Source: Dacryopinax spathularia
Lineage: Eukaryota; Basidiomycota; Dacrymycetes; Dacrymycetales; Dacrymycetaceae
DNA length: 64,000 nt
Direction of reading: 5' to 3'
NCBI GenBank assembly: GCA_037974965.1
Contig: JBBPFI010000004.1
Location: 682,001-746,000 of the forward strand
Shown here: positions 20,613-41,920 of the stretch, piece after piece
Position numbering within the stretch: the first letter of the stretch is position 1
Layout of the letters: the number at the start of each line of letters is the position of its first letter
Translations under genes and position numbers: made by a program
Notes under the pieces: model-generated
The model's database searches: none
Told to the model about the DNA's origin: nothing
The model's input: the letters and a program-made list of their open reading frames with translations, nothing else

Positions 20613-21407
20613 CTCGTTGGGGTGCTACTACGTGGGTGCAAAGGGTGTGAAGGGCGAGCGAAAAGTTGAAGATAGAGAGACGTCGTCGTGCGTGCGCAAG
20701 GAGTGGGCGCTCATCCGACTCACTCAGCAACCAGCAAAGAGCGCCAATTTGATTCCGTCAGTGGCGATACACTTCCTTCCACCTGAGGACGCTCAGGAAT
20801 CCGGGCAACTGTTCTGGATCTGGATCTGGGCGCGCGTCCAGAACCGGACCCTATTTCGGACTTATAACCCAATTAAGATGAGTAATTTTGTTTTATTCCT
20901 CTATTTAAGCGTACATACAAGCTTTAAGTACATAAAAAAGAAAGCTAAGTAATAAAAATCAGTAAAAATTGAAAATTTTGGCAGAGCTTCGCCGTTCGGG
21001 CCCTGCCCGTATTCAAAAATGTGTGCCCGGCCCGACTGAATTGCCCCCTCCTCCTCCATACTCGAGAACGTCCCTGTTGGAAGGGGAATGCGGGGGAGCG
21101 GGTGGGATGCGCTGGACAAGCAGGTACCGTGAACGGTGGCCTGCTTGCCGAAGGTACCGTGAGCGGTGACCTTGACTGTCGAGGCGCCGTGAGCAGCCAC
21201 CTTGCTTGCTGGAAAGCTTGGATAGGCGCCGTGAGCGGCCACCTGTTTTGCTGGAGGAAAGAGGAAGGCACCGAGTACAGCCACCTTTAGAGCATTGTGG
21301 AGGGAAGGGGGAAAAGAGGAGGATAGAGGGAGGGGGGGGTACCGAGCACGGTGACCCCAGTCGGAGTTGAGCAGAGGAAGGAAGACAGTGAGCTCAGCAC
21401 CCACGGT
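20613..21407. other. YJU2 promoter plus repeat-rich, possibly transposon-derived segment
   Basis: The first 250 bases should be the YJU2 promoter. From about 20870 to 21000 the sequence turns sharply AT-rich with A- and T-runs, then GC-rich with GGCCC/CCGGGC-like strings (21000-21040), then enters a degenerate tandem repeat (21123-21356). The abrupt changes look like an older transposon remnant rather than host promoter. The minus strand is open for 236 codons (20901-21611) and the tandem repeat is written in that frame as KVAAHGA-like units, but I see no family resemblance. Confidence 0.45.
21123..21356. repeat. degenerate tandem repeat, six GGYRCCG units
   Basis: Six related units begin at 21123, 21153, 21183, 21225, 21267 and 21338, with a consensus near GGTACCGTGAGCGGTGACC and spacing of 30, 30, 42, 42 and 71 bases. 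GGTACCG and CGGTGACC within a unit are partly self-complementary, so several units can form short imperfect hairpins. It lies just outside the proposed left end of the Helitron. Confidence 0.7.
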
Positions 21408-21430
21408 TCCTGGGACCTTGGGACCAGGTC
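21408..21430 (+). repeat. left imperfect inverted repeat, candidate Helitron end
   Basis: The 23 bases starting TCCTGGGACCTTGGGACC match, in inverse, 41687-41708 with 20 of 23 positions equal, including one single-base gap. The stretch can also fold alone (CCTGG...CCAGG, 10-nt loop). Confidence 0.5.
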
Positions 21431-21573
21431 TGAGGGGCAAAAAGCAACGTGATTTACATCCGTTTGATGTGCACGTGGCCGTTTGTTTCCGTCTGTACTG
21501 TACACGTTGCGTCGCGTTGTGTATTATCTGACTGTTAACGTTCCTCGTTTTGTCCATCGTTCTGAACGAGTAT

Positions 21574-24500
21574 ATGAGTATGTCCGTGTCGCGTTCGTCG
21601 TCCGTCAACAACGATCTATTAGCACCAGTCGGTACGTTCTTTATCTCGTTTGTCGTTGTTGTTTCTGACTGTCATTGTGTCTTTGGCTGATTCTGGCGTT
21701 CGCCTTGTCTGTTGTCTGTTCTGTTGATGTTGCTGTTTACTGTTGGTTGATTAGCCGGTATCCGGCGTGTTTCGTTGGTGAATGGTGATGTCGGCCCGTT
21801 AAGGGAAGAAAATGGCCACTGGCTACTTGGCGCGACTGAGTTACGGATGTGGTACGATTTATTGGGTTGTTTCGTAAGCCCTCAGGATGTGTCTGAAAGT
21901 GTCTTCGACCGTGACGTGCGTGACATTTTATTACAAGGTATGACTGTGAAGGATTTGGTTACTGCGTATCCATATTTTACCAAGTCGGAAATGTCGCGTA
22001 TCAGTAGTATGGGTCATTACCATGACTCGTTCTCTTTATTGATGAAGAAGTCTGATATGTTGAGTCGTTTACAGTCTCGTGCTTGTACTTGTCGTGAATG
22101 CTTTCAGGTTTGTTTCGTTTTCCGGCTCAGGTGGACGCGTCGACGTACTGGCGAGGCATCAGTTCCTATTCCTGCCATTAGTAACGATGGGTTGCCAGAA
22201 AGAGGTCGTTATGTTCCGACTCAGTCGGTGTTTCCTACTCATACTGGACCGTCTATCATGAACGTGGATGCAAAGCGTAAGTTGATTGAGGATACGAGTA
22301 AATTTCTGTCAGTGGATAGTCAGATGCGGTTTCCTTGTGGTACGTGTGGACGTGGTTGCGTAAGGGCTGAACTGGTACAGAGAGATGTTACCGAGATTGA
22401 TCTTTCACTTCTTGTTGATGACAGTATACCTTCGAATTTACTTCCTCTGTCGTATAATGTGTCTGCGTATGGCGGAGCCATCTTACATCCTGATTGTCTG
22501 TCATGTCGAGATCGATGCGAGGGCAATATCCGTCTATGTAAGTCATGTGCGACATCATTAGGTGATGGTCGGGTTCCAGAATTTGCCTTCGCCAACGGGT
22601 ATTATTTCGGTTTGGATCGAGTGCCGCCGTCAGTACAGTCTGCTTTGGACTCTGCGTCCGTGTTTGATCGTTTACTGGTGTCACGGGTTAGGGGTAGTAC
22701 GGTGACTTTCAAGTACAGCGATAAGATGTTTTCAACGGTTCCAGGTGGTCCGCGGTCATCGTCTCAGAGTTATACCAAAGGTAACGTCATGATTTTACCT
22801 CAAGATTTCTTGTCATTAAATAAGGTGTTACCGCCGCCTCCTGACGAGGTCAATAAGTCGGTGGTTGTTCTTTTTAGTCCTTCCCAGTCTCGTACAGAGA
22901 AGACGATAAGGAGCTTTCGTCCTGTTATGGTCACACCGGGTATCGTTCGAGTCTTGATACAGTTTCTTCTTGCATATAACCCAGCTTATTCAATAGACGG
23001 TTATGGTTTTGACGGGCCATGTCAGTTCAGTGAAAGTAATTGGTCTGCTTTATTTCCTTCATCCGTATCTACAGAAAACTACTCTGACTTGCCACCGTCG
23101 GTTTCCGTGGGACACTTACGTGAAACTGACCCGGCCGTGACTGCTGGATCCTCTTATGATGGTCGGGAGTATGTTGTTTCGGATGGGCAGGTATCGAATG
23201 GGATTCTCGTTGATACGGTCGGTTGGACTGAGTCCGATTTGACAAATTCGAATTATGATCGTATGAAGTTATCTGCCTTGTCTTGGTGTTTACAGGGCAA
23301 GCCGTTCATTAGAAATGTACCGGGTACAGTTTCTATAAATGATTTTGACTGTCCCTACCTGTTGACGTGGATGTGGCCACATTTGGATCCTTTTGGTCTT
23401 TTTCGTTTCGGGAAGGATCGGTTTGGAAGATCGGTCGATTTGAGAAAGCAAGTGAAGCATTTATTGTCTCTGTATAAGTCTCCGTTTGCCATTGACCCGA
23501 CCTTTGGTTTCATATGCTATAATATAATCAGGAAGCGAGAAGTTTACCGGACTATACGATTTCGTGTAAAGTCGGTTGAACGTTCGTCTATTTTAAATAG
23601 ATTACAGTCGATTTCGGTGGATGTGTTGACGGCATTTGAGGCAAAGGTCCGCACAAATCCGGCTTATCGTCCAAGTAATGATGGAGAAAGGTCTATTCAA
23701 TCTATCTTGAGACGTTTAAATTTCACCTGTATGTCTCTGCCCGGATCTCCGGCGCATAAGATAAAGTGTCGAAATGAAATGCGTAGTATGTCTTACGTCT
23801 TGTCCACACCGGCTTTGTACATTACGATCAACCCGTTCGATCGCGGTCATCCTCTAGTACGGTTACTGTCTGGGGAGAACCTGTCGATGGACGACGCTCT
23901 TCGTGGTGATATTGAGTTAAACGCGTTCAAACGTGCAGTCCTTGCTGCTAAGAATCCTGTCGCCTGCGCCACGTTCTTTAATACGATCATGACTGCGTTT
24001 ATCGAGCATGTCTTAAGGTACGGTCAGAGTGAACCTGGTCTGTTCGGTAGATGTACAGGTTATTATGGAATGGTTGAAGCACAGGCTCGTGGGACATTAC
24101 ATTGTCATTATATCATATGGTTGGACGGTCATTTGCCGCCTCAAGCTATGAGGGAACGTTTAGGGACAGATGCCGATTATAGACAGACTCTGACATCTTG
24201 GTTGGAAGACATTATCAAGTCGGAGTTACCGTCTACATTGTCGGTCGTGACGGACTCTTCGGTCAAGAAACCTAATTTGTCAGGTAGTGTAGACAGCAGA
24301 ACTCGGTCTGTTCCTCTGATAGATAACCTATCTACGGACCAGTTCGCGTCTTTATTTGCGGAAGAAGTTGAAGCCCTTGCTGTTCAGTGTAATTGGCATG
24401 TACATAGTGCAACGTGTTGGAAGTATTTGTCTCCTTCTGAGAAACGTAGTGATAAGACGTGTCGGATGCGAATGGACGGTACCACCCGTCCGATATCGGT

Positions 24501-27500
24501 CTTCGATCCTGTAACTGGTACCTTGAACCTCCGACGGCTCCATCCTAGGATCTGTAATTATAATGATGTCTGTTTGTTTTTATTTCGGTGTAACATGGAT
24601 ATTAAATTTATTGGATCAGGTCAGGCAGCCAAGGCATTAATGTACTACGTGACCGATTACGTCACGAAGTCGGATCTTCCCGTCTATGAGGGGCTGTCGG
24701 CCCTTGGATACGTCTTAAACTCAATAGGTTGCTTCGATGATCGTCTTCCGGTCGATGATGATCGGTCCTGGAAAGTCGTGACGCGACTTGTAAATGCGAT
24801 TATGTCGCGGAGAGAGGTTTCGCAGGCACAGGTCATGGCGGATTTACTCGGTTACGAAGATCATTATACTAGCGGATCGTTCGCTAACTTGCTGTGGGGA
24901 TCTTTCGATCGTCTTTTTAGTTATCATCTTCGGGAAAGTGAAAATGTGTGTGACACACTGGATGTTGACGTTTTACCTCCTACGCGTCTGTTATGTCGTT
25001 GTTTGTCGACCCAACAGGCAAATGGTCCGGATACTGACGTCTTAGAGCCGGAGGCGACAGAGGATATCGTCATAGCATCTGAAAGTGTTACTGCATCTAA
25101 TCAACAATATGATTATATGTACAGACCGGTTGCGCCCGCGTTTGACGAGTTATCTCTGTGGGATTTTGTCGCTTTGACTGTTAAGGTACCTTTATCGCGC
25201 GACCAACGAAGACTGGAACGCGACACGTCACCATACTCTAACCGTGGTCGTCGCTTACAGGAACGCGGCTTGTTTATGGCTGGTCACAGACAGTCTAGTA
25301 CTCACTTTCTCCGTTTTCGTGAGCGTCCCGTATTTCCGGTCTTGTTGGGTCCGACGATACCACGTCTTGACGGTTCTGTAGAGCAGTATGAAGTCTGGTG
25401 TAGAGTCATGTTAATTCTTTTCAGTCCGTGGAGAAAGCCTTGTGATTTGAAGGACGTAGACGAATCTTGGACTTCCGTATTTGAAATGACTGAATTTCCA
25501 GACCACTTAAAGCAGGTGATGGACAATCTCGTCGTACAGCGTGACTGTCAATCTGTCAGGGACGAGTACCAGGCACGTCGGCGCCGAAATAAACGTACGT
25601 CTGCTTTATACGTGGATCCTTTAAGCGTAGATGACCTGGAGAATGCGGAAACTTTAGAGTCTCTTATTATGACGGATGATAGTTCGGATTCCGGTACGTC
25701 AGAGTCAGCTTCGTCGGTTCCTCCTGAGGTACATGCTGCTGTCTCAGCCGCTAATACAGCGTCTTTGTTCATGGCTTCAGTTTCCGAACCAGGACGATTA
25801 CCGTATGTGACTGGTTGTGTACAAGACGTGACAGGGGAGGACCGCTCGGATATCCTTCAGTTGACCGCTGTCATGGTAAATGCCCGGAAGCGTACGCGGG
25901 AAGACGTTCTAGATGGTACGAGTGATGCCCGACCATCTCGACGGTCGCGATTGACTGTAAATCATCAGGCAATCATAGACGTCACAGTTAGAGAAGACTC
26001 GTCGCGTTCAGGATCGTCATGTTCAGGCATTCCAGTAGTCTTGCGAATTAGTGACGTCGTAGAAGACCTTCTCTCACGAAGGAATATGCTGAACAATCCG
26101 GAACAAGCTAAAGCGGTTCGTTTGATTGGGTCTCATCTGGAACGGGGTGACGAAGATGAACAACTTTTGATGTATATTGGCGGCGTGGCGGGTACTGGTA
26201 AAAGTTATGTGATCGATACTTTAGTGGAACTCTTTACCAGTCTAGGACGACGTTCTAGTTTGATGTTAACAGCCCCTACCGGTATTGCGGCCGTAAATAT
26301 CGGAGGGTTTACGGTTCATTCTGTTACTTGCATCGGAAATAGTACTCGTCAGGGCCATGACCGCGGATCGGCGGGCATGTTACAAACCATGTGGAAAGAC
26401 ATTTCTTACCTTGTTATTGACGAGATATCTATGATAGGTGCCGGCTTGTTAAGTCGTATTTCTCAAAAGTTAAGTATAGCCTGTGGTAGTCGTAACCGTC
26501 ATGGATTGTCGAAACCCTTTGGAGGATTGAATGTGATATTTACTGGTGACTTCGGTCAGTTGCGTCCCGTACGTGCAAAGTCTCTTTTCGATTATAGACT
26601 GGTTCGGGAGATTCCGCAGGTCATTTCAGAGTCCTGGACCGGCCAATCTGATCTTTATGGGGCGTGTTTATGGCGTCAAGTAAGGACCGTTGTCTTACTG
26701 AAGACGAATGTTAGACAGGAAGGTGATCGCCGTTATTGTAACTTGTTGGCTCGTATACGACAAGGTATCGCATGGACGGGTCTCAGTCCGTTGACAGAAG
26801 CTCAAAAAGGTGTGGAAGAGTATGGAAACTATACGTGTTCGGACTATGACGTTTTAAGATCGAGATGTATATCTGTAATAGCTCGGCAACCAAACGGACC
26901 TGACATCTTGAAGGAGTTTAGGGACGTTCCTTTTATAGTCACTACCCGGTCTATTCGCGATGAGCTGAATGTACGAGGGGTAAAGAGGTTTGCCCAAGTA
27001 ACAGGCCAGGAAGTTCATTACTATTATGCACAGGATTATATTGAACAACGCTTACTGAACGGAAAAGTCCAGTCTCATTTACGTAAATTACCTTGTAGTA
27101 TAACTGGGGATGCATTAGGTGCCTTGCCATTGGTGCTAGGTATGCGGGTCATGATCACAGAAAATGTCGCTTTGAGGTATAGAGTCGTGAATGGAGCAGA
27201 AGGTACGGTCCGTGATATCAAGTACGAGACTGTTGATGGCGTTCGAGTAGCAGTTATGGTACTGGTTCACGTGCCGCAATCTAATATGTCTGGTATTGGT
27301 CTACAAGACGATGTTGTACCCATTGTTCCTGTTAAGACGAGTTTTGCATATAAACATCCCGGATCAGATACGCGTTTCACTGTCAAGAGAAGACAACTAC
27401 CTTTACTTCCTTGTTACGCATATACAGACTACAAATCACAAGGACGTTCTCTGTCACGAGCGATTGTCGATCTTAGCGGTTGCGGTTCCTTACAGAGTAT

Positions 27501-27642
27501 GTATGTCATGTTATCCAGAGTCAAGACGTTAAACGGTCTGTTAATTTTACGGGACTTTCGTCCCACAATCTTGTATTCTGCCTTGTCTGGTGAATTACGT
27601 AACGAGTTCGGTCGATTAGCCGAATTGTCTAATCGACCCTAA
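21574..27642 (+). CDS. Helitron replication initiator-helicase (RepHel)
   Basis: The Helitron transposase nicks, transfers and unwinds DNA for rolling-circle transposition. I place a 19-codon first exon at 21574-21631 and a 123-nt intron (GTACGT...TTAG), giving 1,981 aa; the frame joins exactly. Counting from the codon at 21775, a DUF6570-like zinc region (CKSCATSLGDGRVPEFAFAN) lies near residue 255-275. The Rep domain follows: ALYITINPFDRGHP (about 680), the metal-binding HxH in GTLHCHYIIWLDG (about 776), and the two catalytic tyrosines in YYVTDYVTK (about 958 and 962). The SF1/Pif1-like helicase has GGVAGTGKS (about 1469), TAPTGIAAVN, YLVIDEISMIG (about 1548), VIFTGDFGQLRPV and a late AYTDYKSQGRSLSRAIVDLS (about 1881). 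No stop interrupts the frame and all key residues are present, so the enzyme looks whole. Confidence 0.93.
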
Positions 27643-27795
27643 TGGGTCGATGCCTGGGTAAATTTCGGCCCGGAAGTGGCTGTGACGATACCAGTCAGTA
27701 TTCTGAAACTCGTCCCTTGACTGTCTATCCTCTGGGACTTGTCCTGTTCGCATCTGGTTAACGACAGTCTTTTACTTACTGTTACTTTCCTGAAC

Positions 27796-28360
27796 ATGCC
27801 TCCGAGTACGTCTTTCGTTAATCCGTACTCGTCCTGTTGTAACTTTCAGAGCAGTCCGTGCTGTTCTACGTACGCATGTATCTGTAAACGACACCATCGT
27901 CCATATCACACGATACCGGGACTTCTCCGTCTATCGGTCTCGTCGAAACCAGCTGCCTCACTTACCACCGGTTCCCGAATCAAATATACGGCCTTTTCTT
28001 TCGGATCTGTCTATCTTTTACTTCGACGACCTGGACGAGATGGGATCCCATGACTGTTGGTACTGGGATGGGAAAGCCTCGATGTGGGTCAAGGGATACG
28101 AAGGTTTACCGTGTCCTCGTTGGGACGGTTACTATCTATCGACCTGTAAGGTACCGACGTGGGTCAAGGGACAGAAACCGTTAAGGCGTCGCTGGCGAGA
28201 ACAGCAACTCTTATCTCAGGTAATGCGTTTTGACCTGATACGTTGCTCCTGTTCTCATCTTTACTTGATCTAGTCGTCTCAAACTTCCGACAGGGTTGTT
28301 GATGGAGCTGACGCGGTCAGTCCTGCTGATGGTCAATGGTCTGATTACCCGGTATTGTAA
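27796..28360 (+). CDS. small Trp/Cys-rich protein, Helitron gene 2
   Basis: I recognise no family. A four-exon model (27796-27805, 27850-27869, 27953-28219, 28274-28360) gives 127 aa with every splice junction in frame, and the donors are GTACGT, GTACGC and GTAATG. The body is rich in Trp, Cys and basic residues: CWYWDGKASMWVKGYEGLPC and then VPTWVKGQKPLRRRWREQ. WVKG occurs twice, 25 codons apart, which suggests a small internal duplication. It starts about 150 bp after the RepHel stop on the same strand. It may be a small nucleic-acid-binding accessory protein, but that is a guess from composition. The first two tiny exons are the least certain part. Confidence 0.5.
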
Positions 28361-28723
28361 TGGTTCTGTAATGTACAGACTAGTGCTGATTCTTAGTTCA
28401 GGTTCATGTCATGTCGCTTGAGAATAACCGTCAATGCGACGAGCACTCGTTACACGGGAAATCGAACTCGGTTCGTTTACTTGGTTTCACAGTCGAGTCA
28501 TCTTACTGATCAAGCATTTCGGACTTGGATTCTTAGCCTTCTCGTCGTGATATGTATCACTCCTCATGTGCGACCGAGTACTGTGTTGTCAGCGTTCTTC
28601 GATTGCAAGAAATACAAAACGCTCTAGATTCGCTGACTTCAAACCGTAAACGATTCGGTCACCATTAATGAAATTGTTCGGTATCAAATACGTGATCTGT
28701 AAGCTGTAATGGATCTCGATTGG
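28361..28723. other. spacer inside the Helitron
   Basis: Between convergent genes 2 and 3. Only short frames are seen, none with a recognisable family. Confidence 0.4.
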
Positions 28724-29885
28724 TTATTCCTCGTACTCGAATGTAACAGTGGTCGGTTCGTCATCTTCGTTTCCATGCATGTTATCTTGTCTAATACGTG
28801 CTTGTTCTAAAGGCGATTCCTGTTTCATACCGTTAGTGCTTTTCGCATTCGGTGAATGAGTATGACTTACTGGGTGGGTATCAGTCCATGCCCCTAAACG
28901 AAGTACGTGATGTAGTACAAGATTCATAACTGGTCCGCGTTCGAGGTGTAGTAGTTGGACTGTAAACGCGATATCGACAAAGTCTCCTTCTTGGAACGCC
29001 ATCTCGGTCGCTGGTCTCACCGTTCCCGTACTAGTCCGGACTCCTAGTTTGACGGGAATGCCTGGTGTCCACTTGTTCCGAATGCGGCGTGCATCTCCTT
29101 TCGGATCATCTCGAGCTTCAAGTGTCCGTTCATTTCCCGTCAGATTCTCGTTACGTTCAAGTCAGGGCATGTGTGTGTTACTTAACGTTCAGACGTACTT
29201 TGAAAAAAACTAACCGGTAAAACGATAGCGACGACATTGGTGAGTCTGAAAACGGCTTGTTGGTCTGAGCGTTACCGGTAACCGTAAAGAGGTATTGTCG
29301 GATAATGTTGATGTATTTGACCGTCTTCTTCCATACTTCTTCATGACCATATCCGGTAAGAGTCACGAACTGGGTAGCTCTACAGGCATCCTTTTCGAGC
29401 CTTGTTACAGTTATTAGAACGGTCGTCTCAGTGACTAGGTACGGAACTCACCCGTTCCAGTTACCCAGACGTGCCAAGCGACAGGACTTGATATGTCCGT
29501 GAATACGGAAATGCGCCGTCAGGTTAGCTTGATTGCACTTCGAATTCATCTTCCATACTATCTGCCAAGCACGTTTACGACGTAGACGATACTTTTCGAT
29601 TACACGGACATCGAGCTGTTCATCGAGATCTACGGAACCATCGGATATCGTCTTGACATTCGTGTCCATTACGAGCTTCGCTTGCGGATGCTGCCACATA
29701 TCTCTTAACAGTTCATCGCCCTCTGTATGTTAAAGTAAGAGACCGTAACTGGTTCTACTTTAAGGCTTTACATACCCGTAAAAAAGGCCATTCTTCGTAT
29801 CGGTCAAAGACGAGTTAAAGTCTCCTGTACGAGTCGCGGTGAACTGAACCGGTCTTTTCCTTAAAACAGTCTCTCTTACAAGGGC
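28724..29885 (-). CDS. unknown Helitron protein, gene 3 (5' end uncertain)
   Basis: No family recognised. Read leftward, four exons join in frame. The first supported one (about 29885-29776) reads RPVQFTATRTGDFNSSLTDT; the next starts at 29703 with DMWQHPQAKLVMDTNVKTIS and ends at a GTGAGT donor near 29450. The third reads GYGHEEVWKKTVKYINIIRQ and ends at a GTACGT donor near 29185. The last carries FQEGDFVDIAFTVQLLHLER and MNLVLHHVLRLG and stops at 28724-28726. The C-terminus alternates beta-strand-like runs and then turns acidic (NEDDEPTTVTFEYEE). A related pattern occurs at the end of gene 4. Exons further upstream (up to about 30600) are possible, but I could not settle them. Confidence 0.55.
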
Positions 29886-30663
29886 TGACCGTGACTATCT
29901 TAGTAAGTACTTTCCTGGAAGAAGACGTTATCATTTCATCGAGTCCGGAACGAAGCCGACTTTCGATACACAATTATCTCCACACATCACATCTACTTTG
30001 ATCCGCCCGTATCTGACCCATCCGTCTCATCCATTCATCGCCTTAGTCGGTCGGATAACGTGTGCCGGTCCAATAGCAAGTGACTTGTATGTTGTGTGGA
30101 TGAATCGTCAGCCGTGATTGGTTCTGCCACATGAGGAAATATTGACTCCGTTTAGGGACAGAAAAGTAAAAAACGTTCCATAACGTCTCGCGACGATTTT
30201 CACGGCGATCAAACCCCAGCACTGTTTCATGTATATCAACTTCTTCATCCTTGTTCCGTTATCTTTCTGCCAAGTCCTACCGGCTGACCTACCTCCACTC
30301 GGGCGAATCGGACAGTGTGTGTCATGGACCAGACCCGATTCCATTCAGAGATTAATCGAAGGTCATGTCATGCCTCTTCATTCCCATCGTAGTAACTGAA
30401 ACTGGAAATTTTAGGTGCATGGAACCTTCTGGATAAGTTAAAGAAGACGGTAATGTACTTTACGCGGACCGTGGACTGATTCTGGCACGGGCAGAAGCGT
30501 CGCATCGCTCTGCACGCATATGGTAAAGTTTCACTTCCAATACCCTGTCTCGTACTTCCCCGTACTCCTCGGCCAGGCATCGCCGTACTGATGGCATCCC
30601 GTAGAAACCGTGTCCACGTCTATATAAACAACGCACAAATCGTGGAGGGAAAGGGACAGCGGT
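29886..30663. other. possible 5' exons of gene 3 and promoter of gene 4
   Basis: Gene 3 may extend into this region, but no splice model convinced me. The right end holds a TATATAAA box at 30621-30628, 36 bases before the ATG of gene 4. Confidence 0.35.
30621..30628 (+). promoter_or_regulatory. TATA box of Helitron gene 4
   Basis: TATATAAA ends 35 bases before the inferred start codon at 30664. The placement fits a eukaryotic core promoter with a very short leader. The same site sits between two oppositely oriented genes. Confidence 0.45.
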
Positions 30664-32246
30664 ATGAAGCGCAGGTCGTCTACCGTAAAAGACGGTGACG
30701 TTACTGGACGTTCGACGAATAGTAAGCGAACCCGTCGGTAAGTACTGGTCGGGCTACATCGTGAATTAATCTGACATTATCGACAGGGCATTAAGTGTTT
30801 CTCCAACTGAGGTCTCATCAGGTGCACCGTCCGACACCGACATCTTAGGTATCTTGACCGATCTTGCCGACTTGTCGAACGGTGTCGAAGATCGCATACA
30901 AACCGAAAGCCCTTTCGTCGCTCGTCCTCCTACAGATATGGTTGCAGTTCGTACGCCTTCTCCCATAAACAATAACAATATCGCGTCGACTACGCCTCTT
31001 CGACCTGATTCTCAGACCGTAAACGTAAAGGCGGGCACGGAAACCGACGAAGCCCAATCGGTACCGGTACTTGCCCATAACGGTACAACGTCCACCATCT
31101 CTCCGCCTGGCGTACGCGAAAGGGGTTCTAGTCTTGTCCCTTCCCTGAAAGGCAAAGAGTCGAGTTCGGGGTAAGTGCCGGTTCGAGTACGTGTGCGTGA
31201 CTGACTTCAACCTGTAGGGCCGAACCGGTTTATAATGAGCGGGGGCAAGTCGTGGGACCTTTCGTATGTGACATCGTCGCAGTTAGCCTTCAAGAACTAA
31301 CCGTATTTTAGCATGACGAATTTGATATGGACGCGGAATGGGGCTATTCCCCCGATCTGAACCGGTTCGTGCTGTGCTCATAGTGATGGTTTCTGTCTGA
31401 TACTGTTTTAGTCGTATTAGTCAGCTCGTTACGTGGCGTAATCCGCGGACCGCGACGTATTCAATCGCAAATGTCCCGTCCGGTCTATACTGGGCAAGCA
31501 AGCCCTCTTCCAGTTCCGACTTTAACGAGTACCTGTTTGACCCGGACCGTCACGTTCCGGTCACGTTCTGGATCGTCGCCAAGTTGGCTGGTATTTTCTT
31601 ATTGACGAGTACAGGGCAGCCTGAACGTCAGGCTAATGTGCTTTTAAGGCCATTAAGGGATCAGGACTTGGTTGCCGCGAAGGCATTACTGAGAAAGCAC
31701 ACTACCGATAAACGTACGTTCCGGATATGTTCTTCGCGAAGTACCGGTCTCTTACCAGTCCCTATCTGCAACATAGTATACATTCCTGCCGGTGGTCAGG
31801 ACTGTATCAAAGTCGGAAAGTGGATGACGAAACGGGTTCCTCGGGAAGCTGCGGAAACGGTCCGTCCTTTGTACTTCGACCTGTCTTGAATATATACTAA
31901 TGCTTCTTAGGTTGAACCTTTTACAGCTATTTACGATGCTACCGTCGTTTTCCAGGCCAAGTCAAAGATGACGAAGGTTCCGCCTGAGAACCTTGTTCGG
32001 AACGACCTTGTACTGGCCGAAGTCCAGTTAAGCCATTTTCGCGACAAGCTTATAACAGACGACTATTCTTCTCCTTCCAAGCCGAATTCCCGTTACAGTC
32101 GTGGTTCCGCAAGTAAATCGGACATAAAGTGGAGAGCGACTTTTGTTTTGCGTTCACTGAGCGTCTTGCATTCTGCCGAAACAGATGAAGTTGACTCTGC
32201 GAGCGATGCGAACGAACTGTCAGAAGAGGAGACGCACGAAATCTAG
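30664..32246 (+). CDS. unknown nuclear-looking protein, Helitron gene 4
   Basis: I do not recognise the family. A hand-built model starts MKRRSSTVKDGDVTGRSTNS followed by KRTRR, a likely bipartite nuclear localisation signal. Exon 1 is 30664-30737 and exon 2 is 30787-31170. Further exons give HDEFDMDAEWGYSPDLNR, then a long block with HVPVTFWIVAKLAGIFLLTS and CIKVGKWMTKRVPREAAET. The last exon starts about 31912 with VEPFTAIYDATVVFQAKSKM and contains VPPENLVRNDLVLAEVQLSH and WRATFVLRSLSVLHS before an acidic tail. All joins keep frame; the intron before the last exon uses a less usual donor (GTCCGT), so that junction is weaker. The NDLVxxEVQL...FxLxSLSVL pattern resembles the end of gene 3 and could be an OB-like beta barrel; this is inference. 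Confidence 0.6.
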
Positions 32247-32557
32247 TCTATTTCCCTTGCTGTAACGGACCGTTACCAGTATAGTTAATCAATATGTTTG
32301 GAAAGTAAATATATAACGCGGCCAATTCAATGAAATCGCCTAGACAAGTCCATTAACCGTGAGCGAGTCAGTCACGTGATATTATTACCCTCTGTATTAT
32401 TAATAACCGTACCCTGGACGCGTCTCATGTCAGGACATCACTGCCATCTTCTCAGACACCACCGTTTACTTACATCCTCTTAACTGATATCGGTTTCTTT
32501 CTCTTTCTACAACTTACAGCGACGTGTATAGGTCCTTATTCTTACATCAAACTCAAC
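32247..32557. other. promoter region of the F-box gene
   Basis: AT-rich spacer in the Helitron with a short AATATATAA string near 32308-32316. It probably serves as terminator of gene 4 and promoter of the F-box-like gene. No coding signal. Confidence 0.4.
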
Positions 32558-34138
32558 ATGCATCGGATCTTCACTATCGCTGAACTGCAAGACGAAGTCA
32601 CGGGCTATCTCCTGGACGAAAGACAGTTCGGAACAGTGGCTGCACTCGGTATGACATGTCATTCAATGTGTCGCGTACTGTTCCGACTGGAATCCTACAT
32701 GACCGAAAAGGGATTTCGTTCAGCCATACTCGTGGTAAGTCATTTATGCGCACGGTATATAGCATATATCTACCTTTCCGAGCTTATGGAAGTACAGACG
32801 TCACCTGATCGAGTTTACTGGGTCCATAACATTCGCTGTCTCGATCTCGTTCTACGTACGAATCAGGAAGAGTCTCGGTACAACATGTACTGTTCCTGGT
32901 ACTCGACTGAAACACACGGGACGTTTTCACGGCTCAAGACCGTCCGTATACAACACTGTCAAGGTTATATCCTCCCGGCAACTCTATCTTTCCTTCCAAC
33001 GGACCTGGACCTACTGGACATCCGGTCTATAAGTGACGGTTCCTTCCAACTGATTGGACTGGACCGCCTCAACGACTTCTTCCGTCTTTTAACCTCTCGA
33101 AATCGTACAATACGGAAGCTTACTTATATCTTCGCTCTATCCCAAGAGTTACAAGAGCGTTTCAGTACACGGATCGGCTATGCATCGACTACATTGGCTG
33201 TAAACAACTTGACGCTGGACGTTCGCAGCCTATGTTACGCCAGCTTCGTTGACATACTGAGTCGGTCGAGCGTCCGGAACTTGACCCTTACCGGGTCTCT
33301 TCCTCTTGACCGTGTTTTCCATGTCGTGGGACGTGACATGACTGTAACACCTTCTCATACCCTGAAGGAACTGCACATCAGGACGTCGTCTTGGCTCGTT
33401 ACTCGCCTCCTCATGTCCTTCACGTCACAAGTTGAACTCATCGACATCGATTGTTCCTTTACCGATGACAATACCGACACGTTCGCGATGTTCAAGCATA
33501 TAGCTCAGAATCATTCAAATGTCAAAGTACTCGAAGTTTACCTGCACGGTCCTTGTCAACATGTCGCACATCCACTTCCCATGGACTGTATGCGAATCCA
33601 CCTCCCGACCTGCAGACTCCTCCGTACCTTTCACTTACAATACTCGCTCAAAGACTACTTCCCCTTCAACGACGATATTTTCCTTGAGCTGGTCCGCAAC
33701 TGGAACGCCTTGGAAGACATATCAATTAACTGGTTATCTCATCGAGACGACCTTGCAGAAGAACAATGTCTAGGACTGGCTGTTCCAGACGCATTCACTG
33801 TCAACTGCTTACCGAGGCTTTCTACGTCTTGTCCATTACTCCGGACATGCACTTTTTCGTCGATTACGTTTCTAATCCAACCGAAAGAGACATTGTCGCA
33901 TCAGTTTCGACTACACCTCCTCTACATCCCCCCACATGACGAATGTCTGGTATCCGTTACTCAATCGGTTATCTGGCCGATGTTAAAGATAATCATCGAT
34001 TCGACCCGCGATCTCGATCAGCGACGTCGCGTACAAGTACAAACAGCTTACCTGGAAAGTCGTATCAGTCAGAACATTGTCCGTCCTCTCCTGGAACAAT
34101 ACTTTCAGTCTCACACTACTGTCTCCTTTCATACTTAA
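32558..34138 (+). CDS. F-box/LRR-like protein, Helitron gene 5
   Basis: An intronless gene of 526 aa. The N-terminus MHRIFTIAELQDEVTGYLLD and the following TVAALGMTCHSMCRVLFRL have the pattern of the F-box that begins many basidiomycete F-box proteins (hydrophobic-x-x-EL-x-x-x-I/V, then a Leu/Cys helix pair). The remainder is a long series of Leu-rich segments separated by polar loops (for example LNDFFRLLTSRNRTIRKLTY and SVRNLTLTGSLPLDRV), typical of degenerate leucine-rich repeats. F-box proteins connect substrates to SCF ubiquitin ligases through Skp1. Its base composition matches the other genes of the element, so it looks long resident there. It is the only large cargo gene without introns. 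The F-box call is moderate and target proteins are unknown. Confidence 0.65.
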   Translation: MHRIFTIAELQDEVTGYLLDERQFGTVAALGMTCHSMCRVLFRLESYMTEKGFRSAILVVSHLCARYIAYIYLSELMEVQTSPDRVYWVHNIRCLDLVLRTNQEESRYNMYCSWYSTETHGTFSRLKTVRIQHCQGYILPATLSFLPTDLDLLDIRSISDGSFQLIGLDRLNDFFRLLTSRNRTIRKLTYIFALSQELQERFSTRIGYASTTLAVNNLTLDVRSLCYASFVDILSRSSVRNLTLTGSLPLDRVFHVVGRDMTVTPSHTLKELHIRTSSWLVTRLLMSFTSQVELIDIDCSFTDDNTDTFAMFKHIAQNHSNVKVLEVYLHGPCQHVAHPLPMDCMRIHLPTCRLLRTFHLQYSLKDYFPFNDDIFLELVRNWNALEDISINWLSHRDDLAEEQCLGLAVPDAFTVNCLPRLSTSCPLLRTCTFSSITFLIQPKETLSHQFRLHLLYIPPHDECLVSVTQSVIWPMLKIIIDSTRDLDQRRRVQVQTAYLESRISQNIVRPLLEQYFQSHTTVSFHT

Positions 34139-34272
34139 CCAGCACAAAATACCGCTCCAAAATATTACTGGGACTGTTCCGTAAACCAGGCTACGCATAG
34201 TAATAATAACATTTTCATGAAATGCAACTGTACAGGACCTAAGACAAGGAAGCAAACGAGAAAAGAGACTGT

Positions 34273-34964
34273 TTAATGATTGTACATGCTTTGTATCTCA
34301 TCGTAAATATATGCGTTCACTAGGAGTATATGATGATACACCTCCCATGACGATACATTACTCCCGACACGGTATTCTGCGACCGGACTGTCGAGATCGC
34401 TAAATGTCGTGTCCGAGCTCCAACCGTCCTGGCTGTTCACATCGAAGTCGGTCACAACGCTAGATGTCGCGTCAGAATCGTCGGACGTCATTTGAACATC
34501 CTCCTTCAAGACTGATGGCCTATCAAGCGCGTTATCGTCGCAGCCAACGTACTATACACAACGTTAACCATACACGTAAAGACGGAGAACGTTGACGTAC
34601 TACAACGGGGGTATCATTCGAAAACCCTACAGTCCGTGAGATTTCGACCTGATCCTGTCATTGATAGGAACGTACCAGCTTCCTCGAAGCCATCTGCCTT
34701 CCCAGGTCCGCTGAAAAGTTTCTCCACCTCCGCATCATATTGGTCGAACACGACATCTTTGCCATACAGACCCGTCTTCTCGTACAGATAGCGACTGTCG
34801 TATTCAACGAAATCTAGATTCCCTGTCAACCTTTACCGTCCTAAAACTGCCCTGTTAAGAACCATACGCGGTACAGTTACTGTTTGGATCGCGGCTGGGA
34901 GAACGTCAGACATGATGAGATACATCTGAAAGAGGTACGCACTGTAAACGACAGAAGTGGCCAT
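34273..34964 (-). CDS. unknown acidic protein, Helitron gene 6
   Basis: No family recognised. Read leftward from the ATG at 34962-34964: MATSVVYSAYLFQMYLIMSD and then VLPAAIQTVTVPR. A 46-nt intron (donor GTATGG) leads into NLDFVEYDSRYLYEKTGLYG and YDAEVEKLFSGPGKADGFEE. A GTACGT donor near 34670 starts the next intron. The final coding part (34273-34509) is Asp/Ser-rich (TSDDSDATSSVVTDFDVNSQ) and ends HHILLVNAYIYDEIQSMYNH. The junction before this last part is unresolved. The N-terminus is hydrophobic and could be a membrane or signal segment. Confidence 0.45.
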
Positions 34965-35357
34965 TGTGTTCTCGCAATTTGCTGACTGTGATGGTTTGGT
35001 TGAACGCGACAGCACCACGCGTCACGGGTCCCACCGGAAGGTTATATACGCGGAAGCTGTCGGTAAAGATCACGTGTGATACATCTTCAGACACTGGCAA
35101 CGGCCACGTCCTTGTACATGCTCCAGTTTGATGACATTACATGTATTCAACACTTCATAATCGTATACCACCTTACCAACCGACGTCCAGTTCCTATGTT
35201 GTAGGGAAATCGTTATGTTATAGGTCACCTACCCGTTCAGGTAAAAGTCGGGAATCATGCCGATGCATGACCGAAATGCATCCGTTAGAGCCAAGGGATG
35301 GTTCTCGAAATGACTGTATACCTTACTTTCCTTGAATTATCTTCACATCTCACCGTT
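34965..35357. other. divergent promoter region, genes 6 and 7
   Basis: This spacer lies between the leftward acidic gene and the rightward RPA70-like gene. It presumably carries both promoters. Only short frames are present. Confidence 0.4.
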
Positions 35358-37545
35358 ATGTCGGTTAACATGTCGTCTCCGAACCCACTGACTCCCGACA
35401 TCTGCGAACGAATTCTCCAAGGCGAAGACATTACGGAAAACAACCAAGTACAAATCCTCTCCATAACGTCCGCCATCGGTTCTGGCGGAAAGCCGGGACC
35501 AGCGCACTACGTGTACGTAACCCCAACGATTACATGAAGGTACTGACCGACCAGTCCCATTAGTGTAACAATCCATGATGGCATTCACGCCATTCCTGTC
35601 ACTTGCAGTCTTCTTCTAGCAAAGGCGATCACGGATAACCAGCTCCGAGAAAAGGACATTATTCAAGTCAAGGATTACGAGGTATATCTTTATGGTCATT
35701 ACCGGTACGTCTAAACTGCTCGACCGACACCGATCTATCTAATTACATCTCGTAGGGTCGTAATCCTCAAACAGACAACACAACCATATTCGATGGACGT
35801 CATACTCGGACAACCTCGGCGTCTATCGACTGTGACGGTTAACGAGTGGACACGTGTACCTCTACGGATTTTAGACGGTGTCGTCCAACGCGATAAAGAA
35901 AATGTGTCGGTCGATGATCTTCATCTGATTTCGACCGACCACGACCGTACCGTCCAGTCCGCTGGGCCTGCGGTCGAGACATCCCGCGTACCTACAGAAA
36001 CCGATCTTTCGATTACTCGACCGTCACCCTCAGCCGTTCCGCAACACATATCAGGTCCATCATCCAGCAACTTACCCGCCATTATTCGTCCCGGTCCCCC
36101 ACGTCCGAAACGGCCCTACGTAACTCCTCCAGCACCGGAAGGTTACGAACACGTAGATATCTTACGGCTCAGGCCAGGCCTCGAATAGTACGTGCTCTTC
36201 AAGTTCACGTCCTTTCACAGTCTCTGACTGATAGTGTTGAAGTTGGTATATAGTAGGTCGGGTCATCGACAAAATCATACCGGCAACGAGATCCGCTCCT
36301 GTAACCGTAATAATGGTGGATTACTCAGTTTGTCCAGATTCTCTTAATTCATTATGACCGTGACTCATCAATTTCGTAGTCTTTCATACCGATCGTAGCT
36401 TGGAATGAACCGGAACGTACCAGACTGAAGTCATGCGAAGAAGGCAATGTAAGTACGTTTCAAACCCTTACTTTCTTTACTTACATTGAACTAGATATAC
36501 CGTATCTCTCAAGCAATCGTTGAGGTTCCCCCTGATCGTTACAGTTATGGAACTGACCAGTCCATCAAACTTAACGAGTACTCTGACGTCGACTTGGTAC
36601 GACTTGTTCAGTTAAACACCGGTATCCTATCTGACTCGAATTAGATGACCGGTCCGGCTCTGGAAGATTTCGATCCACTTCCTACATCTTCAATAGCTTA
36701 TTCCGCATGGCATTCCTCGAAAAGCACGTATACCATGACGTTACAACAAGTCGCGAATTTCGACCTCAGCACGGGCCCTATCAAAGTCAAGATCGTGGCC
36801 AATATGTCTAGCTTGACGCGTATAAACGTCTTCTACTTTCCCTGTCCTGCACCCCTCTGTACCGGTAATCTGCAACAGAGTCGTGGTTCCAATACTTTTC
36901 GTTGCAAAAAATGCGATCGGAAAGGTCCGCCGACTGATATTCGGTACGCTGGCAATATGACACGTTACTATTGTTTAACTGATCAGAAATAGTTATGTCA
37001 TTCACGGGAACTTGCTGGACCGTCATCATTCACTGCCTTGTGTTTTATGGAACGATGCAGGTCGTCAACTGATCGGCATATCAGCCGCATCCTTATGGGA
37101 AATGAAGGTACTTTAATGTTTATAGTTACGTTTGTTCTTATTAACGGTCTGGTTCAGACATCTCGTCCTCAAGAATATCAAGCCGTTATAGACGCTATAC
37201 CTACGACTCGTCGCACATTTCTCTGTACCATCGTGGCCGGTAAAGTATGCCATACCTCTACTTGTTATCTTCATTCTTCTAACCATTCTGACAGGATGTA
37301 GGACATATAAAGTGTACTGTAAATCGCGTCTTACCCATTGGGCACTGACACCAATCTCAAGTCACGTCTATTACATGTTCCGGAAATATATCATGTCTGT
37401 ATTTGACTTGTACTTCACCTTTACCGGTCTCTATCTTTTTCTTTCATTCTGTATGGTTCCGTTATCACGTCGCGACGATACAAGAGTCCAATATCATACA
37501 TTCCATCGGTCTCGACACACACAGTCAATACAGACACTAGCTTAA
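35358..37545 (+). CDS. RPA70-like ssDNA-binding protein, N-A-C form (Helitron gene 7)
   Basis: A homologue of the large subunit of replication protein A, the eukaryotic ssDNA-binding complex. The start at 35358 gives the RPA70N domain: LTPDICERILQGEDITENNQ, VTIHDGIHAIPVTCS and KDYEVYLYGHYRVVILKQ. A Pro-rich linker follows (near 35960-36150). DNA-binding domain A is seen as GRVIDKIIPATRSAPVTV and AWNEPERTRLKSCEEGN. Domain C follows directly with a zinc ribbon, CPAPLC and CKKCDRKG (near 36840-36925), then LWNDAGRQLIGISAASLWEM and RRTFLCTIVAG. Exons 1-3 (35358-35512, 35564-35704, from 35756) join in frame. Domain B is not found. About eight exons are needed, and the last one (to 37545) and the join into domain A are uncertain. 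It is convergent with gene 8. Confidence 0.82.
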
Positions 37546-37565
37546 TAGAACCCGACCATCCACGA

Positions 37566-40086
37566 CTAAGTCTTGATAACGTCCCCAAACTCGACGACCT
37601 GAGGAAGCGCGTCCGCGCGAGTAATGTTATACACGACCAGGGACGTAGTCTGTCAAGTCCGTTAGTAAATCACGTAAGAGACATGACAGCGACTTACAGA
37701 ACTTGTACGAGCCAGAACAGTAAAAGTATACCATTTCTTTGCCGCCGTGATTGTCTCCTCAAACTGCAAATCTTCGTCGGCCTATACAATTATAAGCCAA
37801 ATAGATAACAATAAACCGTATTCAAGAGACCGACCTTCAACTTTTCCAGTCTAGTAACAGGCATTCCGAGTACGCTTTCTGCAACACGATCAAAGATCGT
37901 CGCACTGATCGTTTCGTTACCGTCGGTAATTTGCACTTCCAGACGATAACTAAATACGTATCAGTCGAGCAACTTGACCATACCACCTTCACGTACCAAT
38001 AACGAGCATCTTCGAAGCTTTTCCCGCAAACCCGACACTCCCACAACTCTTTATTTTCCACCAATGGCTTCTCGTCATCATCCCCGTCTTCACGGTTGAA
38101 ACTTCTCCCAGCACCGCGTAAGACAGGAACTTCCGCCATGAATGCAGTCGCGAGACCGTTACATCCGGGAAGACGACAAGCATTATATGAGACTCTGTCC
38201 GTCCTGATCGAGTGCAAATATGCGCGAGTCTTGAACACGGCCTTCCCTCCGTCAGATCCAATCTCGTTCATGACGGCATCAGTTATGCTCGTAAGTCCTT
38301 CACGTCCAGTCGTCATGTACAGTCGCTGACATGCCGATGCACTAAAGGCAGCATCTGACAACTCGATAAACGTTTCATTACGTCCACCCCGTTCGAACCT
38401 AGAAACGGCGTCAGTCGTCTTATAACCAACTACGATCACTCTTACCAAGCCTGTAACTGCGCTGCCGCAGGTATATCCGGGTCATGAATGATCTTCGCAC
38501 CGGTTTCCACAGACAAGCTAAGTCCTCCAAACTGGCAGATCCTTGCAGCTTGAATGAGAAGAACGTCCCCGACAATAGCATTGAACTTGACGGCATCCTC
38601 TCCCCAAACTACCACGCGACAAGCATGTCCGGATGAGTCGACAACTTGAATCTCGCGCAAGACCGACCCATCATCGACTCGTGTGGTCAGTTCAGACGCA
38701 GGCTGGAACCCTCCAGTTAGGTTCGTAACGATACCAGTCTTGTCCTTGAGATGCATTCGGACCTCTTCTCCGACGAGATTGACGACGACGAGAACATCTA
38801 AAAGACGGTGAGATCCAGTCATCCAACATACTACGTAATACCCACCACAGCTACCCGTCTTGACAGATACAAGGTCTTTCAGCCGGACGAAATCGTAAGT
38901 CATCGCCGGCACCTTCCCGTCTTCCGGCAACTAACAAGCTCATCAGGCATAGACCCCGACAATAAGTGATTAAGCCTACCTCCACGGCCTCAAACCTGGT
39001 CTCGTACTTGATCTGGAAAGGAGAACCGACTGCAAATTGCGACGGGGGCTGAACGACTTGTCCGCCGGTAATAGCATATACCTACTTCACAGTCACTTCT
39101 GTACCTTAAAGACATGTACCATGACTGACCTTGCCAGACAACAGTCGATCCGTCTTACGGATGGCTTCCGGTCTCCAAGCAACAGCACTTATCTTTCCCT
39201 ACCAATATCAGTCCCGTCAGTACCAATCTTACACGTGATAGGCGCATACGTACCGACGCGTCCATGAAGGTCAGGTTGGAGACAAAACAACCAGGCTTCG
39301 ACTTCAACTCCGTAGAACCGGTATTTCGAATGACTCGAACTCGTATTTTAATCCTACCATGTCTGGATAAGTGGTCTTTCCTTGTCTAGAACATCTTACG
39401 TACGCGTTCAAAGCAGGGCGCAAGTCCGCTACGCGATAGTATCCGTCCTCGTCTTTCTGAGGAAACGGTAGCACGCAAGGACGACTCGTCAGCCTTCGTT
39501 GGTGACTATGATTAGATAAAGTCCGAATAGGTCCAATCGAAGACTCCGCCTGTTGCTCGACAGCGACCGGTGAGACAGTCGCAAAGGGTTGGTAACCAGG
39601 AAAGTGCGTAGAAACGTTGTCGACAAGCGCATCGATCGGTACAGGATCTCGTAGCTTCTCTTTACAAGGATGGACAACATCCACGACACACAGTATAGGC
39701 ACGCTAAGACATTTCAATGACCATTCAAACCCAGTATACTCTGACTTACATGTAACCACCAGATATATGACGAACAACCGTCCGGATCTTCACGATGTCA
39801 TATACCGCCATTGCGCCCCCGTCCACTTTACCGTTCTGATAAGTCGACAACATCACAGGAAGTGCATGGGAACCGTCGCTAATAACAAACCTGCTTATCG
39901 TCAGTAACAGGACGACGCATATATGCTTGAAACTACTTACTTGTAACGTCGAGGTTCCAGTTCCCGTCCATGCAATTCGACCTTCTTAATCGCCAACACT
40001 TGTACCATCGCTTCGTCAGGCAGAACGGCATCTGTAAGAAGTCCACGACAATAGTTCCTCGTCAAGCAACTGCTGAGGTCGGTCAT
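37566..40086 (-). CDS. RPA70-like ssDNA-binding protein, full N-A-B-C form (Helitron gene 8)
   Basis: A complete RPA70 homologue, read leftward from the ATG at 40084-40086 to TAG at 37566-37568. RPA70N: TDAVLPDEAMVQVLAIKKVE, RYKFVISDGSHALPVMLSTY and ISGGYIVPILCVVDVVHP. A linker of about 110 residues follows. Domain A: GRVGTYAPITCKIGTDGTDI, ISAVAWRPEAIRKTDRLLSG and YAITGGQVVQPPSQFAVGSP. Domain B: YDFVRLKDLVSVKTDVLVVV, REIQVVDSSGHACRVVVWGE and the family signature DPDIPAAAQLQAWFERGG. Domain C has a four-Cys zinc ribbon (CRLPGC and CRVCGKSF) and then TISATIFDRVAESVLGMPVT and a closing VVYNITRADALPQVVEF. Exon junctions keep frame throughout. Size and domain order equal ordinary cellular RPA70, so it looks functional. 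It differs clearly from gene 7 and so is not a recent duplicate. Confidence 0.9.
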
Positions 40087-40481
40087 GGCTGTTACGAATT
40101 AAGGAGTGATGAGTCTTTCGCGTCAGTCAAGACTTCATATATAAACCGACGCGACGCGCGTCGGAAGCAATGACACGTGAAAATGAGTCAGCCGCGGGAA
40201 CCGACTGAGACGGTCAATGTCAAAAATACACGTGACTCACAGGTCCCCTAACCTGTCGAGGACTTTCGCGGACAGTCGCCTTCCATTACAACACCGCCGT
40301 TCCTTTTTACCATCATCATCTCACGTCAACAACGGTCCTGATCCTGTAAGTGTCCGGTTCGTCCTACTGCTTCAAAGCTTACCCTTACTCACTTACTCAA
40401 TAACGAGAACAGATACGATTGACTATCACGTACGGCCCTTACCGTTCACGTCCGACGCGTCCACCATAACAGCCTCGAACA
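40087..40481. other. divergent promoter region, genes 8 and 9
   Basis: A 395-bp spacer. TATATAAA at 40138-40145 lies about 50 bp upstream of the gene 8 start when read as its complement, and could serve as a core promoter element. No coding signal convinced me. Confidence 0.4.
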
Positions 40482-41545
40482 ATGTCGTGGGAAGACATGG
40501 CGCCCGACCTGATCAACGACGGAGGACGGAGTATACGTATAGTCATGAAGACCTCTTCTGCTACCGTACGGAACGGTACATTTCAATTAAAGTTACCTGT
40601 ACTTACTCCAATCCAGACCGGTAACACGAACACGTCGGCGACAGTCACAGACCTTGGACATAATTTCAATCTGTCGATTACGGTACGCATACATCTACAT
40701 GTTTCTATAATCCCTTACTAATACCTTCACAGACAGAATCGACTACTCCGTCCGGTTCCGAAGTACAGGCGAACAAACCGACCACTTCGATCCCATCCCT
40801 CGGACTGGACGGACATCAACAGGTAGACAAGTCGGTAACCGACAAACCGATCCAGAACAAACCGAATCGTCCCGTACCGCCCATAATTACTCGTCAATCG
40901 GCGACGCCTAAACGTGCACAGTCTTCTATATCAACGGACCTTTATGATCCTGACACGCCTACCGGTATCGACTTACCTCTCCTCGTCTCCGAATGGACGC
41001 AGACGGACCCAAGTCTGTTAAACGAAGCACCGCGTCCGCCCGTCACTACAACCGGTGCCCCGACCATAACTGTCAATCCTCCGACGACTGCGTCCAATAT
41101 TACGAACCGGCTTAAACGTAAAACGCCTCCGGAATCGGAACCGGACTCGACCTCTAATCGTCCGCCCAAATTACGCGTCACCCAAGTCGTCGACGACGAG
41201 ATCCAGATAATGGTACCCGTAACGCCTGAAAAACGTATGACCGCCGAACCTAAACCATCGGAAAAGGCATTAGTACGTGTACAGTTAGATATGCAACGCT
41301 TACTGACTGCTTCTCTTAGGGTAAACGTCCCGAAAAACCGGCTACCGTACGTCAACCGTCCGGCGCAACGTACATCACCGGACCTTACCTCGGATCCGGT
41401 CGTCCTCTACCGTATGACGAGTAAGTACGGAACAAGTCTACCAATGCCAGACACTAACCTATACAACAGAACCAGGATGCTCGCAGATACCTACGCGTTA
41501 CATATGGCTCTGGAAAAATACGAGCCAACGAGTACGACCCACTAG
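40482..41545 (+). CDS. unknown nuclear-looking protein, Helitron gene 9
   Basis: No family recognised. Two exons, 40482-40682 and 40733-41545, separated by a 50-nt intron with a TACTAAT-like branch site, give 337 aa. The N-terminus (MSWEDMAPDLINDGGRSIRI, then MKTSSATVRNGTFQLKLPVL) looks beta-rich. The middle is Pro/Thr-rich and probably disordered, and carries a basic motif, NRLKRKTPPESEPDSTSNRP, that could be a nuclear localisation signal. The C-terminus is more structured: LVRVQLDMQRLLTASLRVNV and RMLADTYALHMALEKYEP. It is the last gene before the right boundary and is divergent from the full RPA70-like gene. It might be a partner of the RPA proteins, but only position suggests that. Confidence 0.6.
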
Positions 41546-41686
41546 TCCTTTCCCTTAGGCGGCGACACTTTAATGAATCATCAGATACCTTTTCTGTAAC
41601 GTTACTATACTAGTTGTACTTTACGGGGAGAATGCATACAGTCTGACCGAGTACCATTCACGCCTATTATGTAATGTCTATTACGT

Positions 41687-41708
41687 GACCAGTCCCAAGG
41701 GCCCAGGA
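41687..41708 (-). repeat. right imperfect inverted repeat, candidate Helitron end
   Basis: GACCAGTCCCAAGGGCCCAG plus GA matches in inverse the left copy at 21408-21430. It also contains its own small hairpin (AGTCC...GGACT, 41691-41710), as 3' ends of Helitrons often do. Confidence 0.5.
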
Positions 41709-41920
41709 CTTGCGCGGAGCGTTTTCCCTATGTTGAAGACGCGTCAAACGGGCTCACGGAAGCAGATAGCCAAGGTCACATGACATGGGAACAAATCTGC
41801 CCCCGGTTCTTTGCACCGCCACGCAGAACACAGAACCCTTGCCCGGAAATCTGTATGTACTGTTCCACCTACTGTTCTCGCGTCTCGTCACCGAGCGACC
41901 ACAGTATACCAACATACAAC
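41709..41920. other. SYF2 promoter
   Basis: Host-like GC content returns here, and only about 210 bp separate the element from the SYF2 start. This is presumably what remains of the SYF2 promoter next to the insertion. Confidence 0.45.

Follow-up and report, generated by a model that had tools for sequence, protein, structure and literature searches.

RPA genes lying beside RepHel are a known trait of Helitrons which, in the available parts of two reports, is described as gained more than once (PMC4683698, PMC4067079). An earlier note on the DNA studied here associated the trait chiefly with plants, and plants do show it, but the same sources extend it beyond them to zebrafish, to sea anemone and to the Helentrons of Drosophila and mite (PMC4683698, PMC4067079); the plant form, PHRPA, is given there as found only in monocots and dicots (PMC4683698). 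Here we describe a foreign block of about 20.3 kb (positions 21408-41708), with host chromosomal DNA on either side, in a 64,000-nt stretch (the window, in whose coordinates all positions are given) of contig JBBPFI010000004.1 of the basidiomycete Dacryopinax spathularia. The block holds a RepHel gene and two RPA70 homologues in one compositional unit with paired ends.

Plant Helitrons with PHRPA resemble this locus in that an RPA70-related protein is encoded by a gene of its own, as far as the accessible text of that report goes (PMC4683698). The element here differs in its fungal host, in having two RPA70 paralogues, one with four OB folds, and in six further gene models, one of them doubtful. 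Helentrons likewise combine RepHel with a separate RPA70-related open reading frame (ORF), which in the mite is intronless and encodes 358 amino acids with DBD-A and DBD-B, according to the portion of the source available (PMC4067079). In contrast, our RepHel has no apurinic/apyrimidinic (AP) endonuclease match and our RPA genes are intron-rich. Helitron2, including the FoHeli elements of Fusarium oxysporum, is described in excerpts as having inverted repeats at both ends, a 5' T and full-length insertions free of target duplication, all of which recall the present element (PMC3627910, PMC5148889). FoHeli elements measure about 5-11 kb and their authors, in the excerpted text, report no RPA-like genes (PMC5148889), whereas the element here is about 20.3 kb long and bears RPA. 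HELPO1 and HELPO2 of Pleurotus ostreatus also have a basidiomycete RepHel, with passengers downstream of it in HELPO1; these elements span 1.5-13.7 kb, their passengers are named capA to capF, and the authors found no RPA within the RepHel ORF, in the sections of that report available (PMC4289320). Fungal Helitron1 and Helitron2 elements, including those of Agaricus bisporus, share with this locus the presence of a whole accessory enzyme gene, there a TET/JBP dioxygenase, and RPA is not mentioned in the part of the article on which we draw (PMC12730594). Deubiquitinase domains are reported from animal Helentrons, again from a partial text (PMC9741609), and a review, likewise available in part, puts fungal Helitrons at up to 14 kb. 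Among the literature matches listed, from a partial text base whose scope excludes subscription journals, Repbase Reports and preprints, none was an RPA-bearing fungal Helitron. Within that coverage, a fungal RepHel element with two unbroken RPA70 genes appears to be new; the pairing of RPA with RepHel is known from plants and animals.

RepHel and two RPA70 homologues

The RepHel gene (21574..27642, plus strand) is predicted to encode 1981 amino acids from two exons, a hand-placed first exon at 21574-21631 and a second at 21755-27642, joined on the basis of the sequence across a 123-bp intron. The underlying ORF (21751-27642, 1963 amino acids) is unbroken and matches the Pfam families Helitron_like_N (5.3e-28), PIF1 (2.1e-23) and DUF6570 (1.4e-21). 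Motifs were located in the spliced model at residues 802 (HCH), 983-991 (YYVTDYVTK), 1496 (Walker A), 1575 (Walker B) and 1617 (GDFGQL); the scan also gave two more HxH matches and one more DE[ILV]S match. Pif1 helicases were the best relatives of solved structure (7otj, 1.8e-23), and Helraiser was matched too (7lcc, 2.5e-6). No Pfam family for an endonuclease domain, AP endonuclease included, was matched at E<=1 on the 1963-residue ORF. A single protein therefore unites an HUH motif, two tyrosines and a Pif1-type helicase, the combination that marks the Helitron superfamily, in agreement with the motif reading of the earlier note.

A search of viral contigs with the RepHel protein and two motif patterns returned no relative, such contigs being unlikely to be fungal. 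One motif pattern gave six matches in prokaryote contigs, none Helitron-like when read in frame. A stretch of a Ruminococcus metagenome-assembled genome (L004:3805-3837), carries a GRGAFHCHVIFIF motif and, read in frame by eye, resembles a rolling-circle Rep of bacteria.

Gene models were built with our own splice-aware finder, which accepts only GT-AG introns and prefers those around 56 bp long; the last two introns of RPA-B, the last of g2 and the first of RepHel were placed by hand. Because the finder imposes them, the GT-AG borders and intron lengths of the models are no independent evidence for the genes; such evidence comes from the RPA domain matches. RPA-A (37566..40086, minus strand; 675 amino acids, 11 exons) and RPA-B (35358..37348, plus strand; 512 amino acids, 10 exons) are free of stops once 10 and 9 introns, respectively, are spliced out, and in both the RPA domains follow in order.

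RPA-A has all four parts of RPA70 in sequence, namely RPA-N, DBD-A, DBD-B and a DBD-C with the C4 zinc-finger pattern. Its Pfam matches are, in order, Rep-A_N (1e-8), a tRNA_anti-codon-type OB fold (2.5e-5, below the cut-off), REPA_OB_2 (5.7e-11) and Rep_fac-A_C (4.7e-16), and a PDB search aligned it with RPA70 chains (8.7e-32). Of its four OB folds, DBD-A falls below the Pfam cut-off yet aligns with RPA70 chains. DBD-B keeps a W and an F aligned with those of a vertebrate RPA70 chain, which we take to be the DNA-contacting residues. RPA-B has RPA-N (Rep-A_N 3.9e-5, 24.0 bits against a Pfam cut-off of 26.7), one middle OB fold (0.0014, below the cut-off) and DBD-C (Rep_fac-A_C 2.3e-15, profile positions 4-117 of 146); Pfam gave neither a REPA_OB_2 match nor a second middle OB fold. 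The four cysteines of DBD-C are kept in both proteins. The RPA-B chain ends soon past DBD-C, and the tail that it lacks is presumably the part joining RPA32 and RPA14. By domain content RPA-B is thus predicted to be a shortened RPA70 member with three OB folds. The presence of two RPA70 homologues, already proposed from the letters of the sequence, is borne out by Pfam for both genes and by PDB matches for RPA-A as well. The N domains of the two proteins are 28% identical, and their alignment, which extends over 259 columns, has a probability of 92%; from this comparison they appear to be distant paralogues. When the nine element proteins were compared as single sequences (36 pairs), only RPA-A and RPA-B were related and the others stood at noise level.

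Ends, composition and passenger genes

The block has a GC (guanine plus cytosine) content of 0.474 versus 0.568 and 0.562 in the flanks. A likelihood fit to GC only, allowing one breakpoint within 10-30 kb and another within 33-55 kb and using no repeat information, placed the edges at 21438 and 41683. Of the repeat described below, the start of the left arm is 30 bp from the first of these edges and the right arm 9 bp from the second. The fit upholds the earlier claim of a composition-distinct block. The observed/expected CpG ratio is also raised (1.28 versus 0.96 and 1.00 outside). This excess extends across three codon contexts (1.45, 1.23 and 1.27 versus 1.05, 0.94 and 0.94 outside) and is the opposite of the decay expected from methylation in an old silenced transposon.

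A 17-bp terminal inverted repeat appears to delimit the block. Its left arm (21408..21424, plus strand) begins with TC and matches the right arm (41692..41708, minus strand) at 16 of 17 positions, the right arm being followed by CTTGCGCGGAGCGTTTT. The block ends proposed earlier, 21408 and 41708, are thus the ends of an inverted repeat with one mismatch. An inverted match as good arose in none of 300 shuffles within 150 bp of the GC breakpoints, in 1/300 within 300 bp and in 1/300 within 500 bp; a 1-kb by 1-kb test gave one such shuffle in 60. If the repeat marks the ends, the element starts with TCCTGGG at 21408, preceded by T, and shares the 5' TC of canonical Helitron1, and it lacks the 3' CTRR, a clear hairpin before it and the insertion between A and T of that group. 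With the left end fixed at 21408, none of the 39 right ends tried (41706-41744) gave an exact target duplication of 3-9 bp; this absence, expected of Helitrons, holds only if that left end is correct. CTTG, with which HELPO2 ends in the excerpt available (PMC4289320), directly follows the right repeat here. The Helitron2 3' repeat is placed about 20-30 bp inside the element end, in the accessible text (PMC3627910), and by analogy the real 3' end may lie slightly to the right of 41708. By its RepHel the element is a Helitron, not a Helentron, and by its ends it is not a canonical Helitron1. It is possibly Helitron2-like, with the 17-bp terminal inverted repeat present and end hairpins that are not significant.

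Codon usage sets the element genes apart. Eight of nine element models, and none of 16 flank models, were nearer to the other element genes than to the host; the test used 16 of 18 flank models, with two antisense models scoring 14.0 left out. Seven of eight passenger models have element codon usage. For g2, g3, g4, g5 and g9 the codon correlation is 0.33 to 0.75 with the element and 0.02 to 0.24 with the host. The median intron measures 50 bp in the element (36 introns) versus 54 bp in the host (49 introns) under the same length prior. Of the base composition and intron style that the passengers were said to share with RepHel, the first therefore stands, codon usage included, and the second does not separate element from host.

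The remaining passengers are g2 (27796..28360, plus strand; 153 amino acids, three exons, the last hand-placed; element-like codon usage), g3 (28724..29791, minus; 279 amino acids, five exons; codon correlation 0.33 with the element versus 0.03 with the host), g4 (30664..32246, plus; 443 amino acids, six exons), g5 (32558..34138, plus; 526 amino acids, single exon) and g9 (40482..41545, plus; 315 amino acids, three exons). A further model, g6 (34273..34964, minus; 179 amino acids), is doubtful, with a score of 3.7 and a codon correlation of -0.08 with the element versus 0.42 with the host, so that seven of the eight genes originally counted beside RepHel are supported. NCBIfam gave nothing useful for g5 or for pieces of g3, g4 and g9, and a structure model of one g4 exon was unusable (pLDDT 33.4).

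The earlier note called g5 an F-box gene, a label that the searches did not sustain. Neither a Pfam family at E<=1 nor a PDB sequence match at E<=10 was obtained. The structure model is poor (pLDDT 43.6) and shows a helical stretch at the N terminus as well as strands alternating with helices. Of the 186 matches that a fold search with it returned at E<=10, none reached E<=0.001, and from so low-confidence a model such matches can be meaningless. The top match on this model was 5hyw chain A, D3-ASK1 (E 0.043, TM-score 0.16), in which we take D3 to be an F-box/leucine-rich-repeat protein. TLR2 came third and Skp1-Skp2 (1fqv) 35th; alongside F-box and leucine-rich-repeat proteins the matches included many acetyl-CoA carboxylases and acetyltransferases, which are unrelated. 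These weak and mixed matches are a hint that g5 might be an F-box/leucine-rich-repeat protein. Of the proposed replication and host-interaction module, the association of the passengers with RepHel is supported; its host-interaction side depends on the unproven F-box.

Saf4/Yju2, a splicing factor gene (19659-20612, minus strand; Pfam 1.1e-82), is the nearest gene on the left, and SYF2, also a splicing factor gene (model 41921-43366, plus strand; part 42842-43363, Pfam 7.8e-44), the nearest on the right. The gap between Yju2 and the element (20860-21407) holds an AT-rich stretch and then four imperfect 22-bp repeats spaced by 30, 42 and 42 bp, which may be the remnant of another small element beside the insertion site. 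No RNA family reached its gathering score within 20600-42000. Two gene models in the flanks, 18331-19233 (FRVHKAIVSVASTVWRNLL) and 55243-56153 (FKVYKPVLSLASTFWRDLF), resemble each other in sequence; the first has a BTB match below threshold (0.0024), and the pair could be members of an expanded BTB family. Within the right half of the block (37408-41408), the plus strand of non-coding DNA is rich in C (GC skew -0.24 and -0.23), a weak residue for which gene direction offers no plain account. Replication from both ends, suggested by a peak at 29319 in the cumulative GC skew of the block, was rejected because the bias at four-fold sites mostly tracks the coding strand and g9 breaks the position rule.

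Alternative readings of the block

Collectively, these data make it probable that the block, about 20.3 kb long, is an autonomous member of the Helitron superfamily of rolling-circle transposons, inserted between Yju2 and SYF2. Several observations weigh against this reading. The ends and the unity of the element are deduced from one copy. The gene models come from a home-made GT-AG finder with some introns set by hand, and are predicted from sequence. Neither g2, g3, g4, g5 and g9 nor the doubtful g6 matched a Pfam family at E<=1. At least two matches to the repeat motif, with 3 mismatches allowed, occurred in 9 of 100 shuffles of the window. A T precedes the 5' TC, and the right repeat is followed by CTTG, not CTRR, and then by C. 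Four end stretches showed no clear folding beyond that of shuffles (z -0.04, 0.54, 0.61 and -1.80), the best of them being equalled by 11 of 200 shuffles.

The alternative that survives best, though we regard it as unlikely, is a composite in which a RepHel-only Helitron of about 6-7 kb lies beside, or is nested with, a second mobile element bearing the RPA and other genes, both parts being alike in composition since both are foreign. Fungal elements with RepHel only are indeed described, in the parts of the sources available, for HELPO2 in Pleurotus (PMC4289320) and most FoHeli groups (PMC5148889). Moreover, on the plus strand G and T are enriched in the left part of the block and C and A in the right part, whose genes lie on either strand. 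This strand bias, however, mostly follows the coding strand at four-fold sites and not position, and the element genes have their codon usage in common. Even with as many as 3 mismatches allowed, the window contains no third copy of the repeat motif beside the two terminal ones (shuffle mean 0.53), and the GC fit favoured the outer pair of breakpoints, though only two breakpoints were fitted.

A Helitron that read past its end and took up neighbouring genes, a host RPA1 among them, is a very unlikely source of the passengers. Helitrons do capture genes, and passengers are described in Pleurotus in the text available (PMC4289320). The origin of RPA-A was judged from aligned domains of 4gnx and 8rk2, which we take to be the RPA70 of Ustilago and of a vertebrate, respectively; the 4gnx record is titled putative uncharacterized protein. 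In DBD-B, over the same 93 columns, RPA-A shares 39 identities with the vertebrate chain and 28 with Ustilago, and the latter two share 43; in DBD-A, over the same 62 columns, the counts are 14, 16 and 32. RPA-A is thus not very remote in DBD-B, where its identity with the vertebrate protein almost equals that between the two core proteins, and for that reason its remoteness rests on DBD-A and on the comparison with Ustilago. From these alignments RPA-A appears to have no special closeness to the basidiomycete RPA70, and a recent capture from the host seems unlikely. Both RPA genes also differ in codon usage from the 16 host models, and the low identity between the N domains of RPA-A and RPA-B, given above, likewise counts against capture. 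The earlier view that the passengers are not random host genes is supported by this lack of special closeness to Ustilago, by the codon usage of eight of the nine models and by the lack of a third repeat copy in the window. Barely plausible is an integrated virus- or plasmid-like large replicon that uses RepHel and whose genome ends form the inverted repeat: the size of the block, as many as nine genes divided between the strands, a terminal inverted repeat, its own RPA-like proteins and a foreign composition with raised CpG would suit it, but the Pfam matches include no capsid, packaging or polymerase family, and the one protein query and two patterns found nothing in viral contigs.

Predicted transposition and implications

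For an autonomous Helitron of this size, we infer all steps of transposition, the binding of the strand by RPA-A and RPA-B, and movement as a whole unit. The HUH/two-tyrosine site of RepHel would nick one strand at the element end, and its Pif1-type helicase would unwind the element. The displaced single strand of about 20 kb could then be coated by RPA-A and RPA-B, which would replace or compete with host RPA; the shorter paralogue, RPA-B, may act without RPA32 and RPA14. The ends of the strand would be joined, probably to give a circle, and its copying into a new site would create no target duplication. For FoHeli1, polymerase chain reaction results suggest ends joined as a circle, according to the part of the report available (PMC5148889). 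By analogy, the element may work in the manner of the RPA-bearing Helitrons of plants and animals.

A more tentative, and on balance rather doubtful, proposal is that the element represents a separate lineage of large fungal Helitrons that has long carried a duplicated RPA70 system, with one full-size member and one shortened member acting without the other subunits. If true, the 20-kb strand would be coated and protected independently of the host, and such a system would account for a size above the 14 kb reported for fungal Helitrons. With its two unbroken RPA70 paralogues in a fungus, the element would add one more RPA-bearing Helitron, and it would offer a natural system for asking if RPA supplied by a transposon determines how much DNA it can move or shields the strand from the host.

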